From Bacteroidota bacterium (lineage in GTDB: Bacteria > Bacteroidota > Bacteroidia > Bacteroidales > UBA12077), in contig JAHLLG010000002.1 in the NCBI GenBank assembly GCA_020444275.1, positions 855,991-919,990 on the forward strand: 64,000 nt of DNA. The letters run 5' to 3'. Both the position numbers and the translations under genes were made by a program. Shown here in pieces: positions 56,598-63,279 of the stretch (positions are counted from its first letter, which is position 1; every line of letters starts with the position of its first letter). The notes beneath the pieces were generated by a model. It did no database searches. It saw only the letters and a program-made list of their open reading frames with translations, and was not told the DNA's origin.

Positions 56598-57359
56598 ATG
56601 ATTTTATACGACCAACCTTCAGTTTTTCCATTCGGTATAAGATTCGACGAACCAGTAACCACAATTACCGATCTTGCTGTATCATTTGTTTGCTTTTTTG
56701 CTTTTTACCAGCTTAACAAAATACCGGTAAAAAACAAGGTGCATCTTTACTTAAAATACTACTTTCTAAGTATGGGAATTGCCACAACCGTTGGAGGAAT
56801 TGTAGGCCACGGCTTTCTTTATCTTTTTAATGCACAATGGGAATCTCCCGAAGGACTAGTTCGCTTTTTAAGTCAAATATTTGGCGATGAATTATTACAT
56901 GAGGCAGCTAACCCATGGAAGCTTCCGGGTTGGTTAACCAGTATGTTCTCAATTGCTTTAGTTGAAAGAGCTTCTATTGAATATGCTCGTCCATTAATCA
57001 GTAAAAAAGTAGGGTCGTTTTTCGCATGGTTAAATATTATTGAATTACTAACATTTGTTACCATAACTTTTTTAACTCTTAATTTTTTCTTTGTAGAAGT
57101 TCACTCAGCCTATGGTTTATTGTTAGTAGTTGCTAGTTTTAATCTTACCGTTTATTTAAAGACCAAGAAAAAAGGCAGCAAACATTTCTTAATTGCAGTT
57201 GGCTTTTCGGCAATAGGAGCATTATTCTTTATGAATCAGTGGGGATTGTCTCCATGGTTTAATCATTATGATATTAGCCATACATTTATGACCATTAGTG
57301 CGCTTTACTTTTATATTGGCTCTAAAGAGATACTCGATGATCCGGTTTTAGCCAAATAG
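56598..57359 (+). CDS. Seven-TM-like integral membrane protein, unknown
   Basis: A 253-residue protein with about seven hydrophobic segments and a conserved-looking pattern of histidines: GGIVGHGFLYLF (about 73-84), GDELLHEAANPWKLPGW (about 97-113) and WFNHYDISHTFM (about 223-234). The layout recalls CREST-type hydrolases (alkaline ceramidase, PAQR), but the match is loose, and DUF6962 is another candidate. I do not assign a function. Monocistronic, divergent from the beta-barrel gene. Confidence 0.6.
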   Translation: MILYDQPSVFPFGIRFDEPVTTITDLAVSFVCFFAFYQLNKIPVKNKVHLYLKYYFLSMGIATTVGGIVGHGFLYLFNAQWESPEGLVRFLSQIFGDELLHEAANPWKLPGWLTSMFSIALVERASIEYARPLISKKVGSFFAWLNIIELLTFVTITFLTLNFFFVEVHSAYGLLLVVASFNLTVYLKTKKKGSKHFLIAVGFSAIGALFFMNQWGLSPWFNHYDISHTFMTISALYFYIGSKEILDDPVLAK

Positions 57360-57536: not shown

Positions 57537-58289
57537 ATGGACCCTAATCAAAACGATTATCACATTAGTTTTTTTAAACCTACAACGCCCCAGGCTAAAT
57601 GGAACAGAAATTTAGCTATTAAACTTATACTTATATGGGCAGTTGCAGTTTTTGGATTTCATTTTCTTTTACGAGCAATTGAAAAACCCACACCCGAAGA
57701 AACCTATGTCAAATATGAACAGGTTTGGGAAAGCATTTCATCAGAAAGTGCCACAACTGATGAAATGCAAGTATTTGCCAATACAACTTTATCGGTACTT
57801 GGTAAAGTTTTTATTAAACCTGATGAAAAAAGTGCTTTAACAAATGCTCTAAGCTGGACAACATTTCAGTTAGCAGATTCATCTCAAAAAGCCTTACTTC
57901 AGGAACAACTTGCTGGATTTGAAAAACTCAAATCTGAAGATATTTCTATTTCTGATCCTGCATACATTAGTGCTAAAGATAAGCTGTCTTCATTAGCTTC
58001 GGGAATAATCGGACTGGATCGCTCTGATGTTAGGTCAAAGCTTATTTCTGTAAGTTTATCATCTGCACAGTTAGAATCTTTTAGTGAAACATCTAGAAGT
58101 ATGATTCCTACCATAATGTCTACTTATTTAATTCATAATCAGTCTGTATTAACTGATTTTATATTTCTTGGTTTCCCATTTCACTATTTCTACACAGCAG
58201 TATTCTTACTCATACTTTTTGTTTTCCTATGCTGGTTATATTGCGTTCGTGTAGATGCCATGAATGTTAAATTAGATATTGAAGAATAA
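57537..58289 (+). CDS. DUF4212-like symporter small subunit with a large periplasmic or cytosolic insertion
   Basis: A 250-residue protein. The N-terminal KWNRNLAIKLILIWAVAVFG (21-40) and C-terminal segment IFLGFPFHYFYTAVFLLILF (about 208-227), ending MNVKLDIEE, match the two membrane helices of DUF4212, the small partner of VC_2705-type sodium:solute symporters. Family members are about 90 residues; here about 150 residues, acidic and helical, are inserted between the helices. It directly precedes the symporter gene by 27 bp, which supports the identification. Confidence 0.65.
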   Translation: MDPNQNDYHISFFKPTTPQAKWNRNLAIKLILIWAVAVFGFHFLLRAIEKPTPEETYVKYEQVWESISSESATTDEMQVFANTTLSVLGKVFIKPDEKSALTNALSWTTFQLADSSQKALLQEQLAGFEKLKSEDISISDPAYISAKDKLSSLASGIIGLDRSDVRSKLISVSLSSAQLESFSETSRSMIPTIMSTYLIHNQSVLTDFIFLGFPFHYFYTAVFLLILFVFLCWLYCVRVDAMNVKLDIEE

Positions 58290-58316
58290 GTAGTTACATT
58301 CCAAAAAAAGAATAAG

Positions 58317-59987
58317 ATGAAAAAAATATTATTACCTATTATATTAATACTTACACCTTCGTTATTATTTGCTGCAGGCGCATCAACACAGCTTGAAGGT
58401 GGTTTTAAAGTTGGTCCTGCAATTATTTTGATAACTATTTTATGTGTTTTTGTTCTGGTTGGTATTTTATTCAGAGCAAAAGATACTGCCGATTTTTATG
58501 CTGCCGGACGTGGAATTTCAAGAGTTGGTTCTGGTATGGCAATCGCCTCGAACTGGATGAGTGCTGCTTCATTCTTAGGAATGGCTGCTCTTATGTATGG
58601 AGCCGGATATCACGGTTTAGCTTATGTTGTTGGTTGGACCGGTGGATATGTTCTGTTATTAATTCTTATGGCTGGACAAATTCGAAAATATGGAAAATAT
58701 ACCGCAGCCGATTTTATTGGCGACCGCTATTACTCTCAAGGATTAAGAGCCGTTGGTGCAATCATAGCTATTTTAATTTCAATTTCATATTGTGTAGGCC
58801 AGTTCGGTGGTATTGGCTTAATGTTTAAATGGATATTAGGCTTAGATTACGCTGCTGCTGTAATTATTGGTGGTGCAGTAGTTTTAGCCTACACCTTAAT
58901 TTCTGGTATGCTTGGTGTTACAAAAAACATGCAGATCCAATATGTAATTATTATTGTTTCTTTCTTAATACCGCTTTTTATTTTGACCTTTAAATTTGAT
59001 TATTTTTGGGTTTTACCACAAATTGGATACGGATCTGTAGTCACTGATATTGTAAATGGTGTGCCACTGGCTGAAACTAATCAATTATTTAATTCATTAG
59101 GACATGAATATGCAATGGTTCCTGCACCTGAATATGCTATGCCCTGGGATCCTGCTACAGGACAAACCTTCTTCCAATGGATTGCTATTGCTTTCTCGTT
59201 AATGATTGGTACCGCAGGATTACCTCATGTAATTCAACGTTTCTATGTAGTGCCAAAAGCACGCGATGCCAGATGGTCTGTTGTTTGGGGATTATTCTTT
59301 ATTTGTGTTCTTTACTGGAGTGCTCCGGCATACGCTGCATTTGGAAAAATCTTATCAGCAAACCCTGAGGTTGGAAAATTAGCAAAAGATGCAATTGTTG
59401 TTTATACAGCACAGCTTGGTAATGTAAATCCGCTTATTGTTGGACTACTTGCTGCGGGAGGCGTATCTGCAGCCTTTTCAACTGTATCGGGATTATTAGT
59501 TGCAGGTTCGTCTGCTTTTGCACATGATTTATATGTAAAAATTATAAATCCTAATTCGTCACCAAAGAAACAATTATTAATGGCACGTTTGGGAACCATC
59601 TTAATGGCTGTTATCGTTACTTTACTAGCACTTAAAAACTGGGCACTTATCGGACAATTAGTTGCCATAGCATTCTCATTAGCCGGAGTTACCATATTTC
59701 CGCTGTTCTTACTTGGAATTTGGTGGAGCGGTTCGAACAAACAAGGTGCCATTGCCGGATTAATTGCCGGTGGATTGGTTTCTGTTATCGCACTAACCTA
59801 TTTCATTGCCGGTAAAGAAGGAGTAACATTACCTTATCATGAGTTTGTAAATTACTGGTTAGGAGCCTGGTATTTTGCATGGATAGGAGCTCCACTTGCA
59901 ATTGTAGCAAATATTGTGGTTTCTAAATTAACACCTCCTACTCCACTTGAAATTCGTAAATTCCTTGTACTAAACGTTCACTCATAA
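58317..59987 (+). CDS. Sodium:solute symporter, VC_2705/ActP-like
   Basis: A 556-residue SSS-family protein with about 13 membrane segments and a signal-like first segment (LLPIILILTPSLLFA). It has the ActP hallmarks: DTADFYAAGRGISRVGSGMA, ASNWMSAASFLGMAALMYG, GQIRKYGKYTAADFIGDRY, MIGTAGLPHVIQRFY and VSGLLVAGSSAFAHDLY. ActP-like carriers import acetate or other short carboxylates with Na+. It lies between its probable small subunit and a TPR gene whose ATG overlaps its stop (TAATG). Confidence 0.93.
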   Translation: MKKILLPIILILTPSLLFAAGASTQLEGGFKVGPAIILITILCVFVLVGILFRAKDTADFYAAGRGISRVGSGMAIASNWMSAASFLGMAALMYGAGYHGLAYVVGWTGGYVLLLILMAGQIRKYGKYTAADFIGDRYYSQGLRAVGAIIAILISISYCVGQFGGIGLMFKWILGLDYAAAVIIGGAVVLAYTLISGMLGVTKNMQIQYVIIIVSFLIPLFILTFKFDYFWVLPQIGYGSVVTDIVNGVPLAETNQLFNSLGHEYAMVPAPEYAMPWDPATGQTFFQWIAIAFSLMIGTAGLPHVIQRFYVVPKARDARWSVVWGLFFICVLYWSAPAYAAFGKILSANPEVGKLAKDAIVVYTAQLGNVNPLIVGLLAAGGVSAAFSTVSGLLVAGSSAFAHDLYVKIINPNSSPKKQLLMARLGTILMAVIVTLLALKNWALIGQLVAIAFSLAGVTIFPLFLLGIWWSGSNKQGAIAGLIAGGLVSVIALTYFIAGKEGVTLPYHEFVNYWLGAWYFAWIGAPLAIVANIVVSKLTPPTPLEIRKFLVLNVHS

Positions 59988-60760
59988 TGAGTAATCAACA
60001 AAATAAAAATAAAAGAGCATTCATCCTTGTGATGACTGCTCTTTCTTTCATTGTTATACTATTTGCATATTTCTATTATAGTAATAAAAATTCTTCCAAT
60101 GATCCAAGGATCGTTGAAGCACGAGAGTTATATCAAAAATATAATGCGTATGCTTCCGAAAATGATATTACCCAAATTTTCTCTTTGCTTGATTCAGTAG
60201 AACATATATATTCTACTATTCCGCATTATTCAAAATCATTTGAAGTTGGCGTATTGTACAACAATAGAGCTGCTGCTTATTTAACCATGGCTTTGTATGA
60301 TAATAAACCAGGAAATTTTAAAGAGTATACGAAAGATTCTTTACTAACGCTGGCAAAAGTAAATGTAAATACGAGCATAAACATATATGAAAACTGGTTA
60401 AATAAATATCAAGACAAAGAGATTGATGAAATTGAGAAATTAATTCAACCTTCGTTTTATCAAGGTTTATCAGATTATAGTGAAAAAGAAAAACAACGTT
60501 TTCTTAAAAATCGCCTTAAAGAAATTGAAACTGCTCAATACGAAACAAAAAGAAGACTCTCTGTAGCTTACACAAATCTCGGAATAATTAACCGCCATTT
60601 GGAAAATTATGAAAATGCCATAATTTATTATCAGAAAGCCATTGAATTGTGGGATCAAAACTTAACCGCAGAAAATAATTTGAACATATTATTGGGTAAA
60701 CCCTTGAAAAAAAGAAATTTAATTCAGAAATTATTCCCTCCAAAACGTAAAGAAGATTAA
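59987..60760 (+). CDS. Single-pass membrane TPR protein
   Basis: A 257-residue protein with one membrane segment (about 10-30, FILVMTALSFIVILFAYFYY) and a helical periplasmic or cytosolic part. Residues about 175-235 form one or two TPRs (YTNLGIINRHLENYENAIIYYQKAIELW). It ends in a basic tail. The start overlaps the symporter stop codon, and the Cache/CBS gene follows by 5 bp, so it is part of the same unit. Its role, perhaps scaffolding the carrier and sensor, is inference. Confidence 0.75.
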   Translation: MSNQQNKNKRAFILVMTALSFIVILFAYFYYSNKNSSNDPRIVEARELYQKYNAYASENDITQIFSLLDSVEHIYSTIPHYSKSFEVGVLYNNRAAAYLTMALYDNKPGNFKEYTKDSLLTLAKVNVNTSINIYENWLNKYQDKEIDEIEKLIQPSFYQGLSDYSEKEKQRFLKNRLKEIETAQYETKRRLSVAYTNLGIINRHLENYENAIIYYQKAIELWDQNLTAENNLNILLGKPLKKRNLIQKLFPPKRKED

Positions 60761-60765
60761 TTAAA

Positions 60766-63279
60766 ATGCATTTATCGCCGAAAGATTTACGTAGATTCTT
60801 TTCAGGAATTGTGATTCCTTCAATTCTTGCTATTATTTTATTTATCGCATCCATGTATATTTTCATAATACCAAGCTTCGAAAATAATATTATGAATAAA
60901 AAGCGTGAGATGATCAGAGAGCTTGTAAATACAACCTGGAATCTTGTTGAAGATTTTAATCAGGATTATAAAGAAGGACTGCTTAGCCTGGAAGAAGCTC
61001 AGCAACATGCAATGAATAAAATAGAAAGCATACGATATGGCGATGAAAACAAAGATTATTTCTGGATTATTGATCTGTATCCGCGAATGATTATGCACCC
61101 TTACCGAATTGACCTAAATGGCACAGAGTTAACGAATTATAAAGATCAGGCTGGAAAAGCACTGTTTGTTGTTGCTGTTGATACCGTGCAAAAAAGTGGT
61201 GAAGGTTTTATTGATTATATGTGGCAATGGAAAGATGATTCAACCAAAATTGTACCCAAGTTATCGTATGTAAAACTTTATAAAGAGTGGAACTGGATTA
61301 TTGGAACCGGAATTTATATTGAGGATGTTAAAGAAGAAATATCAAGTTTGGAAAACCGATTACTAAAAATTGCCTTTATAATTATTGGTATTATTAGTAT
61401 TATAATACTTTACATTATTAAGCAAAGCTTAGATATTGAACGACGAAGAAAAGATATTCAAGATAAATTAAAAGCCTCAAGAAGAAAATACCAGTCGCTT
61501 GTTGAAGCCTCTATTGATGGAACGTTATTAGTGGTAGACGATAAAATTATATTTTCAAACATTACCTTTAATAATATGTATGGCAGTTCGGCCAGTTATG
61601 TTTTACTTCAAAAATTTGATGATATATTTGAAATTAAATGGAACAATGTATTATTAAAGGTTAAAGAGGCTGGAAAATCTGTTTCAATTGATACGAGAAT
61701 TAAAACCGCTAATAAAACCTACCGTGATGTTGTTTTATCAATATCAAAAGCCTTTTTTGGAAAACAGGCTGGATATATCATTATTGTAAAAGATTTAAAT
61801 CAGGTTAAACTTGTTGAAAAAGAAACTGAGCAACTATCTAACGAAGTACAAACTTCGCTTTTGTTAATGAATCAACCCATTCAACATTTTAGCAAAGAAA
61901 TAATTAGCTGCGAAATAAATAGCTCAATTGCTAATGCAGTGCAAATCATGACACGAAAGAACAGCGATGTAATATTTGTTTCACAAGATTCAAATCTAAT
62001 TGGGATAATAACCGATCATGATCTTAAAACAAGAGTACTTGCAACCCAAAGAGATATCAGTAGTTCTGTTTCTAATATTATGACTGCTCCCATAATTGCT
62101 GTAAATGAAAATATTCTTCTGTATGAAGCTATTCTGCAATTTAATAATCGTAAAATTTCGCATTTGGCAGTTACCAATTCAGAAGGAAAAATAAGCGGTG
62201 TTATTAGTAATTATGATATTTTCGAAATGCAAAGAAACTCAATTAGCTTCTTAGTGCGTGAAGTTGAACATGCAGAAACTGTTCATCAAATTGAAAAAAT
62301 AACACAAAGATTACCTGTACTTATAAAGGCGCTTATTGATAGTGGTGCAAGAACGCAAAATATTACCCGAATTATTACCTCGTTAACCGATGCAATAACG
62401 AAAAGACTCATTGCATTAGCCATAGAAAAAATAGGTAATCCTCCTTCTGGTTTTGCATTTATTGCTGTTGGTAGTGAAGGCAGAATGGAACAAACATTAG
62501 CAACCGATCAGGATAATGCCATAATAATTGAAAATGTTCATCAGGAAAACTTAGATGTTTTCAAAAGATACTTTTTGGAATTAGGATCAAGAATCAGTGA
62601 TTCTTTAAATGACCTGGGATTTAAGTATTGTAACGGCAAAGTAATGGCGAGTAACCCACGTTGGGTATTAAGTCTGGATGAGTGGAAAAAACAGTTTCAT
62701 ACCTGGATTGTTAACAGCGATCCCAAAAGCATTATGGAAGCAGGTATATTTTTCGACTTCAGGTGTATTTATGGAAGTCAAGAGCTTACTAAGGAATTGC
62801 AGAATTATATTTTTCAAATTTCGGCAAACAAAGCTGCATTTTTTCAACATTTGGCTAATCCTATCATCAAATATAAATCTGCTATAAATCTTTTTGGTAA
62901 TATCGTTGGTGATACCAAAGAGGACAATCAGAATGTACTTGACATTAAAAAAATAATTTTCCCTATAACAAGTTTTATTCGGATATATGCAATCCGGAAT
63001 AAAATTGAAGAAACCAACTCGTTACTGCGCCTGGAAAAACTCAATTCCATAAACCAGGTAAAGAAAAACCTTTACAACGAAATTAATGTCTCTTACAATT
63101 ATCTGATGTTAATGAGATTCAGGTTTCAAACAAACCAATTATTAAAAAAGAAAGATCCCGATAATCTGGTTAACATTGATGAACTTACTGATATTGAAAA
63201 AACTACTCTTAAAAAAATAATATCCGAAATCTCCAATTTACAAACTCAGTTAAACTTCGATTTTAAAGGTAATTTATAA
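60766..63279 (+). CDS. Cache-PAS-CBS-CBS-DUF294 signalling protein
   Basis: An 837-residue protein. Membrane segment 13-35, a periplasmic sCache_2 domain at about 40-195 (DYFWIIDLYPRMIMHP, then EWNWIIGTGIYIEDV), a second membrane segment at 199-218, a PAS domain at about 240-350, two CBS domains at about 375-486, a DUF294 nucleotidyltransferase-like domain at about 525-665 with Gly569-Ser570 and Asp581-Gln-Asp583, and a DUF294 C-terminal helical domain at about 700-830. CBS-DUF294 proteins are known beside ActP-like symporters; the fusion to an extracytoplasmic ligand sensor is unusual. It probably links carboxylate sensing to symporter control. Confidence 0.88.
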   Translation: MHLSPKDLRRFFSGIVIPSILAIILFIASMYIFIIPSFENNIMNKKREMIRELVNTTWNLVEDFNQDYKEGLLSLEEAQQHAMNKIESIRYGDENKDYFWIIDLYPRMIMHPYRIDLNGTELTNYKDQAGKALFVVAVDTVQKSGEGFIDYMWQWKDDSTKIVPKLSYVKLYKEWNWIIGTGIYIEDVKEEISSLENRLLKIAFIIIGIISIIILYIIKQSLDIERRRKDIQDKLKASRRKYQSLVEASIDGTLLVVDDKIIFSNITFNNMYGSSASYVLLQKFDDIFEIKWNNVLLKVKEAGKSVSIDTRIKTANKTYRDVVLSISKAFFGKQAGYIIIVKDLNQVKLVEKETEQLSNEVQTSLLLMNQPIQHFSKEIISCEINSSIANAVQIMTRKNSDVIFVSQDSNLIGIITDHDLKTRVLATQRDISSSVSNIMTAPIIAVNENILLYEAILQFNNRKISHLAVTNSEGKISGVISNYDIFEMQRNSISFLVREVEHAETVHQIEKITQRLPVLIKALIDSGARTQNITRIITSLTDAITKRLIALAIEKIGNPPSGFAFIAVGSEGRMEQTLATDQDNAIIIENVHQENLDVFKRYFLELGSRISDSLNDLGFKYCNGKVMASNPRWVLSLDEWKKQFHTWIVNSDPKSIMEAGIFFDFRCIYGSQELTKELQNYIFQISANKAAFFQHLANPIIKYKSAINLFGNIVGDTKEDNQNVLDIKKIIFPITSFIRIYAIRNKIEETNSLLRLEKLNSINQVKKNLYNEINVSYNYLMLMRFRFQTNQLLKKKDPDNLVNIDELTDIEKTTLKKIISEISNLQTQLNFDFKGNL

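Follow-up and report, generated by a model that had tools for sequence, protein, structure and literature searches.

Locus and gene content

The window analysed here is a 64,000-nucleotide stretch of contig JAHLLG010000002.1 from a Bacteroidota bacterium of the order Bacteroidales (NCBI GenBank assembly GCA_020444275.1). At positions 57537-63279 it carries a compact unit of four genes, all on the + strand, in which a small symporter subunit, a sodium/solute symporter and a membrane-anchored tetratricopeptide repeat (TPR) protein are followed by a transmembrane (TM) sensor that ends in a putative nucleotidyltransferase. The spacings of 27, -1 and 5 bp, proposed in a first-pass annotation made by a model from the letters of the sequence, are confirmed by the open reading frame (ORF) positions, and the four-gene order is not a chance arrangement because it recurs in relatives. 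The features of the unit are as follows.

57537..58289, + strand: gene 1, expanded DUF4212-type small symporter subunit, 250 aa; TM1, helical domain of ~140 residues, TM2 (Pfam, NCBIfam, AlphaFold)
57699..58130, + strand: inserted all-helical domain of the small subunit, residues 55-198 (AlphaFold), put outside the cytoplasm by charge bias
58317..59987, + strand: gene 2, sodium/solute symporter of the VC_2705 family, 556 aa (Pfam, NCBIfam)
59987..60760, + strand: gene 3, single-pass TPR protein, 257 aa, TPR part probably extracytoplasmic (Pfam, charge rule)
60766..63279, + strand: gene 4, sensor-nucleotidyltransferase, sCache_2-TM-PAS-CBS-CBS-DUF294-DUF294_C, 837 aa (Pfam, AlphaFold)
60892..61347, + strand: sCache_2 ligand domain, residues 43-194, with Y98, W100, H111, F134, Y151, W153 and K165 (Pfam, alignment)
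61516..61800, + strand: PAS domain, residues 251-345 (Pfam, slightly below the gathering score; strands and helices in the AlphaFold model)
61879..62235, + strand: CBS pair, about residues 372-490, boundaries estimated by us (Pfam)
62308..62727, + strand: DUF294 nucleotidyltransferase domain, residues 515-654, with G569, S570, D581 and D583 (Pfam, alignment, Foldseek)
62836..63264, + strand: DUF294_C helical substrate-binding domain, residues 691-833 (Pfam, AlphaFold)

The sensor and its ligand pocket

The Pfam scan of gene 4 returned sCache_2, two CBS stretches (65.3 bits), DUF294 (PF03445, 155.9 bits) and DUF294_C (PF10335, 106 bits), and matched neither a kinase domain nor an RNA-binding domain. 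The N-terminal Cache-TM-PAS portion stands in place of the cyclic nucleotide-binding (cNMP) domain that is typical of cytosolic DUF294 proteins, as scanned at survey locus L170. The AlphaFold model of the sensor has a mean predicted local distance difference test (pLDDT) value of 84.9 and a predicted template modelling (pTM) score of 0.52, and because of the latter the placing of the domains relative to one another is uncertain.

The best solved relatives of the Cache domain are 4k08, described as crystallised with acetate, and 5g4y. The Cache domain of the chemoreceptor PscD is reported to bind C2/C3 carboxylates through seven residues, with Tyr90, Trp92, His103, Phe126, Tyr143, Trp145 and Lys156 in contact with propionate (PMC5062169). 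These align to Y98, W100, H111, F134, Y151, W153 and K165 of the window sensor, and all seven are identical in 98/98 rows of an alignment of sensors of at least 800 aa from loci L052-L150 plus the window (95 distinct rows, as the same sequence was reached twice in L053/L079, L054/L081 and L060/L148). They are also complete in 10/10 sensors found later by the DUF294 profile alone. That set began with 12 loci, from which L234 and L238 were dropped because the contig ends inside the gene and no Cache domain is visible; L241 repeats L117, so that nine sensors are new. The suggestion of the first-pass annotation that the protein responds to outside carboxylate is thereby supported and sharpened, since a complete PscD-type pocket points to C2/C3 carboxylates as the probable ligands.

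The putative nucleotidyltransferase output

The nucleotidyltransferase motif (G569, S570, D581, D583) is intact, as originally annotated. In the alignment, G569, S570, R573, D581, Q582, D583 and N584 are invariant in all 98 rows, and the GS and DxD residues recur in the ten sensors found by profile alone, a pattern that suggests catalysis. When the whole sensor model was searched with Foldseek, the first nucleotidyltransferase chains were DrrA (6yx5, E 1.1e-9), and GlnE (3k7d, E 1.6e-9; 1v4a, E 2.9e-9), and Cache, CBS and PAS structures were matched as well. Judged from its length, the GlnE match would fall in the DUF294 part. By this model comparison, the closest solved nucleotidyltransferases are the protein AMPylators DrrA and GlnE. 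A sequence search of the PDB with the DUF294 part found no meaningful relative (best E 2.2), and GlnD_UR_UTase matched one relative weakly, below its cut-off. DUF294_C has been placed in the Pfam clan of the GlnD/GlnE C-terminal domains, and tabulated there without a conserved HEPN motif, so that the sensor shares with GlnE and GlnD the succession of a pol-beta-type nucleotidyltransferase and a helical domain of one clan (PMC3710099). The 4.2-Mb window genome holds a single DUF294 gene.

These residues bear on a reading in which the sensor regulates the symporter by direct binding and the nucleotidyltransferase fold merely binds nucleotide. The tight packing of the genes would suit it, as would the reported control of several transporters by CBS domains through nucleotide binding (PMC10710835). 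The invariance of GS, DxD and their neighbours in every row speaks for catalysis instead, and we consider direct binding fairly unlikely.

The symporter, its small subunit and the TPR protein

Gene 1 matches DUF4212 (PF13937) with 39.8 bits against a cut-off of 30, over residues 204-248 only, which correspond to profile positions 33-78 of 79; TIGR03647, the NCBIfam small-subunit family, is likewise above its cut-off. Ahead of this stretch, Pfam and AlphaFold agree on an insertion of ~140 residues: the model (mean pLDDT 86.7) comprises a helix at 18-48, helices within 55-198 and a helix at 217-245. Among 35 aligned homologues, charge bias places the inserted domain outside in 33, and the domain is probably extracytoplasmic. 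Its fold found no match in the PDB at E<=0.001. The expanded subunit is a widespread form, represented by these 35 homologues, and no peculiarity of the window genome.

Gene 2 scores 180.6 bits against Pfam SSF and 507.3 bits against the NCBIfam 'VC_2705 family' TIGR03648 (cut-off 320.75). An assignment as the cation/acetate symporter ActP was rejected, as the equivalog TIGR02711 gave just 168.4 bits against a cut-off of 1099.25. Gene 3 combines one N-terminal membrane helix with a TPR unit (Pfam TPR_1, 31.9 bits), and 20 of 28 homologues are more positive before the helix than after it, so that by the charge rule the TPR part is probably extracytoplasmic. The TPR protein had been put forward, beside the carrier, as a protein that the sensor might modify. 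This part of the earlier proposal fared badly: the TPR protein is an unlikely target because its TPR part is placed outside the cytoplasm and the DUF294 domain inside. Nor is the TPR gene universal at the loci of relatives, a point that the first-pass annotation had overlooked.

Recurrent linkage to symporters

We surveyed the neighbours of 181 nucleotidyltransferase ORFs, reduced to 164 by removing those with identical residues 51-350. They comprise 116 sensors of the Cache type and 48 cytosolic proteins, of which one (L136) is a split Cache gene, leaving 47. Besides the window, the Cache sensors were found by sequence patterns in a scan of named genomes (set A, n=63), by the whole protein in the order (set B, n=40) or by the DUF294 profile in the phylum (set C, n=12); the 40 loci of set B and the 47 cytosolic loci were chosen by hand from match tables that showed no neighbours. 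Partner families were recognised by profiles made from our own neighbour clusters and took their names from one or two scanned members each, and 'symporter' denotes any SSF-profile match within 6 kb, a few of them distant (L198, L200, L031, L050, L172; E 1e-9 to 1e-24).

A symporter lies within 6 kb of the sensor in 26/40 loci of the order sample, 11/12 of the phylum sample and 47/63 of the scan set, rising to 16/21, 6/6 and 35/37 where at least 4 kb is available on both flanks, and near the sensor in 8/10 of the later DUF294-profile set. Among the 116 non-redundant Cache-type sensors the count is 85, window included, with many of the others on short contigs. Far from being scattered without symporter neighbours, the fusion of an extracytoplasmic Cache domain to a conserved catalytic motif recurs beside them, as the first-pass annotation had anticipated. 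Three partner combinations were observed (the VC_2705 type with expanded DUF4212, a 515-aa symporter with DUF485, and a 632-640-aa symporter with DUF485), located upstream or downstream of the sensor and on either strand. Parsimony on a FastTree tree of 115 sensors gives 22 changes of symporter class, a figure raised artificially by an 'other' class into which cut-off genes also fall.

Part of this might reflect chance or general synteny with no functional link, as the tree attributes some of the likeness among close relatives to common descent. However, the link persists while order, strand and symporter type vary, and the density of 7 SSF genes in the 4.2-Mb window genome predicts a chance proximity of only a few percent (an estimate from that genome, with no random-gene control). 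We regard this explanation as highly improbable.

A cluster of proteins of 400-470 residues with a signal-like N-terminus (c2) lies near the sensor or symporter in 35/81 loci (e.g., L104:1255-2484 and L126:14910-16223). The member from L104 has no Pfam match, and the protein presumably resembles an outer-membrane porin.

Phosphodiesterase partners

A second partner, which the first-pass annotation had no means of seeing and which is absent beside the window sensor, is a calcineurin-like metallophosphoesterase. It occurs within 6 kb of the sensor in 32/40 loci of the order sample, 7/12 of the phylum sample and 31/63 of the scan set; with flanks of at least 4 kb the first two become 18/21 and 4/6, and in the later DUF294-profile set it is found in 10/10. 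By a motif check it lies directly upstream on the same strand in 25/40, 7/11 and 15/56 loci with enough upstream sequence. Its metal-ligand residues are complete in 48/48 proteins of the main family (E<1e-60, >220 aa, identical ones counted once), and this family is present without a nearby symporter in L087, L094, L111, L199 and L217 (L148 has the L199 sequence). Two further metallophosphoesterase families are found in other clades, downstream on the opposite strand or, in Elusimicrobia, after the symporter, and the three profiles share no match at E<=1e-4.

The cytosolic DUF294 loci have a different partner. The three metallophosphoesterase families are found in 0/47 of them (1/47 by motif), whereas a DnaQ-like RNase_T exonuclease gene lies near the DUF294 gene in 32/47, adjacent to it in 29; a profile search of the neighbours found this exonuclease in 0/115 Cache-type loci. 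Acetyl-CoA synthetase is encoded near 12/47 cytosolic genes, an SSF symporter within 6 kb of 11/47, and a DUF4212-type small gene in 7/47. In L041, L045, L180 and L036, the cytosolic DUF294 gene is followed by a sodium:neurotransmitter symporter (SNF, scanned in L041) and then a CNNM/CorC-type protein (scanned in L036); here the same nucleotidyltransferase accompanies sodium symporters of another superfamily.

As two unrelated phosphodiesterase folds alternate beside the same nucleotidyltransferase, we read the pair as a putative writer and eraser of one nucleotide modification. The pairing would suit an alternative cycle equally well: the DUF294 domain would synthesise a small nucleotide messenger, like other enzymes of the pol-beta fold, the phosphodiesterase would break it down, and uptake would be regulated by the messenger via CBS or other binding proteins. 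This is the main rival of protein modification, and we judge it unlikely: the closest solved nucleotidyltransferase folds are those of the protein-modifying GlnE and DrrA, and no obvious messenger-receptor gene appears among the annotated recurrent neighbour clusters (the CRP/FNR-type gene present at nine loci was not assessed in this respect).

The same neighbours, together with an AP_endonuc_2 TIM-barrel gene found near the sensor end on the opposite strand in 12/81 loci, belong to families that include nucleic-acid enzymes. They would thus be compatible with a DUF294 domain that adds nucleotides to tRNA-like RNA, to be trimmed by the paired nuclease. Such a role would leave both the membrane Cache sensor and the symporter linkage unexplained, in a protein with no RNA-binding domain match, and appears very unlikely.

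Distribution and origin of the sensor

When 393 genomes of the order were searched with the whole protein, 66 had a match at E<=1e-20. In 20 of these, the window genome included, it was a near-full-length single match, and in others the Cache and DUF294 pieces lay within one open frame of ~930-1040 aa. Sensors come in two sizes, a short form of ~835 aa with one PAS domain and a long form of ~960-990 aa, for which both scanned members (L101 and L131) have two PAS_9 stretches. Among the best 80 of 164 loci from the pattern scan of named genomes, the titles are mostly Bacteroidota or Ignavibacteria, with further ones from Elusimicrobia, Delongbacteria, Cloacimonadota, KSB1, Armatimonadetes, Calditrichaceae and Gammaproteobacteria. 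The title of L105 (Ectothiorhodospiraceae) is probably misassigned, as its class sample shares match coordinates with phylum-sample genomes (G791/G180, G815/G031). DUF294 itself (PF03445) has matches in 125/395 phylum-sample genomes, a good part of them weak.

In a tree of the nucleotidyltransferase part, three changes separate the Cache and cytosolic types. One of them is probably the split gene L136, so that the Cache fusion apparently originated once or on a few occasions. The two ORFs of L136 and the in-frame stops in G632 (L067) and G614 represent decaying copies or assembly errors.

Probable history of the window locus

In the tree, the closest sister of the window sensor outside its immediate clade is L191, in which the TPR gene and the sensor are separated by a porin-like gene and a metallophosphoesterase gene, with the latter ~1.1 kb before the sensor. 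The sensor follows the TPR gene by at most 12 bp in the window and in 6/8 near relatives (the gap is 425 bp in L071, and L093 is too short to tell). Given the L191 layout and the lack of a nearby Metallophos match in the window, the simplest view of the compact four-gene unit is that a longer ancestral cluster has been shortened, and the window clade appears to have lost its neighbouring phosphodiesterase. Candidates for reversing a modification in this genome would be another phosphoesterase or the enzyme itself.

On the 5′ side of the unit, a DUF6962 membrane protein is encoded on the same strand at 56598-57359, 177 bp away. Its cluster occurs in 6/81 loci including the window and is local synteny of the window's close relatives only. 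No match to any of the Bacteroidota-type promoter patterns tried was found 5′ of 57537.

Proposed function

We propose, with confidence evenly balanced, that the sensor is a transmembrane receptor for C2/C3 carboxylates whose output is a GlnE-like nucleotidylation; it would control carboxylate uptake, and in many lineages a separate phosphodiesterase would undo the modification. A C2/C3 carboxylate outside the cell (such as acetate, glycolate or propionate) would occupy the Cache pocket and, together with signals at the PAS domain and the adenylate-type CBS pair, would switch the GlnE/GlnD-like nucleotidyltransferase at the inner face of the membrane. The enzyme would then most likely attach a nucleotide to the adjacent sodium/carboxylate symporter at a cytosolic site, or else to a different protein involved in carboxylate use, so that uptake is matched to supply, and in many lineages the nucleotide would be removed by the phosphodiesterase encoded alongside. 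That some protein is modified by the sensor we hold to be about an even call. The cytosolic loops of the symporter are the preferred site, as they are recurrent and within reach of the enzyme while the TPR and inserted helical domains are predicted to lie outside, but our confidence that the symporter is the target is well short of even. The acetate links of cytosolic DUF294 proteins, the carboxylate pocket and the symporters together point to short-chain carboxylate use as the controlled process.

Several observations weigh against this proposal. The PAS_9 match of the sensor (25.2 bits) is just below the Pfam cut-off of 27. Two of the six scan patterns contain Y98/W100 or Y151/W153, and conservation of the pocket is possibly in part a matter of ascertainment; H111, F134 and K165 lie outside all patterns, and 19 rows from the whole-protein search, as well as the ten DUF294-profile sensors, are pattern-free. 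None of the three phosphodiesterase families was found within 6 kb of 46/116 Cache sensors, some on short contigs. L208 and L211 have neither symporter nor phosphodiesterase despite long flanks, L219, also with long flanks, has a porin-like gene only, and in L085 (6252-7691) and L086 (1880-3355) a DUF3360 membrane protein, possibly another carboxylate carrier, is encoded directly 5′ of the sensor with no adjacent symporter. In the window genome, all 10 Metallophos matches are more than 40 kb away from the sensor, and a copy of the main phosphodiesterase type was not found in a weak search made without a positive control. In P. fluorescens, deletion of a cytosolic relative, or of actP, is described as having a negligible effect on growth on acetate (PMC5715377).

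Relation to known systems

Among the nearest known systems are cytosolic cNMP-CBS-CBS-DUF294-DUF294_C proteins such as Pflu5625 of P. fluorescens, with which the sensor shares its CBS-DUF294-DUF294_C core (scanned in L170). A cytosolic cAMP-binding/CBS/nucleotidyltransferase protein is reported, together with actP, in the CrbS/R acetate regulon of that species (PMC5715377). CrbS-type SLC5-STAC-histidine kinases resemble the unit in tying an SLC5 transporter module to acetate signalling. As described there, transporter and sensor are fused in CrbS and the output is a kinase, whereas the window unit has separate genes and no kinase match. From VC_2705/DUF4212 systems, whose families TIGR03648, TIGR03647 and PF13937 are all matched above cut-off (PF13937 over part of its profile only), the unit differs in the helical insert of its small subunit and in its TPR partner. 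PscD/McpP-type sCache_2 chemoreceptors share the seven pocket residues with the sensor but feed chemotaxis instead of a nucleotidyltransferase. GlnE and GlnD differ in that they are soluble, take a nitrogen input and act on glutamine synthetase or PII, and GlnE carries its own reversing domain.

Our literature search found no paper joining DUF294, CBS and a symporter, none joining a Cache domain, a CBS domain and a nucleotidyltransferase, and none on DUF4212; in the parts of the literature that it covered, no reaction of DUF294 is announced. Among known bacterial transmembrane receptors, the output is mostly a kinase, chemotaxis signalling, a cyclic-nucleotide enzyme or transcription, and a GlnE-like nucleotidyltransferase would, if true, add a kind. 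While DUF294 regulators tied to acetate use are already known, the present system can credibly be argued to represent a new class of receptor output. Tentatively, and with less than even confidence in the whole, we suggest a one-component receptor class in which a ligand-gated protein nucleotidyltransferase converts outside carboxylate into protein-AMP/UMP inside and controls sodium-driven carboxylate uptake, with an exchangeable phosphodiesterase as eraser (a metallophosphoesterase for the membrane form, a DnaQ-like exonuclease for the cytosolic form). The symporters, the predicted ligand and the two alternative phosphodiesterase partners make this a hypothesis testable at the bench, with a sensor, a writer, a candidate target and a candidate eraser, and suggest a possible, little-known route by which bacteria may control uptake.

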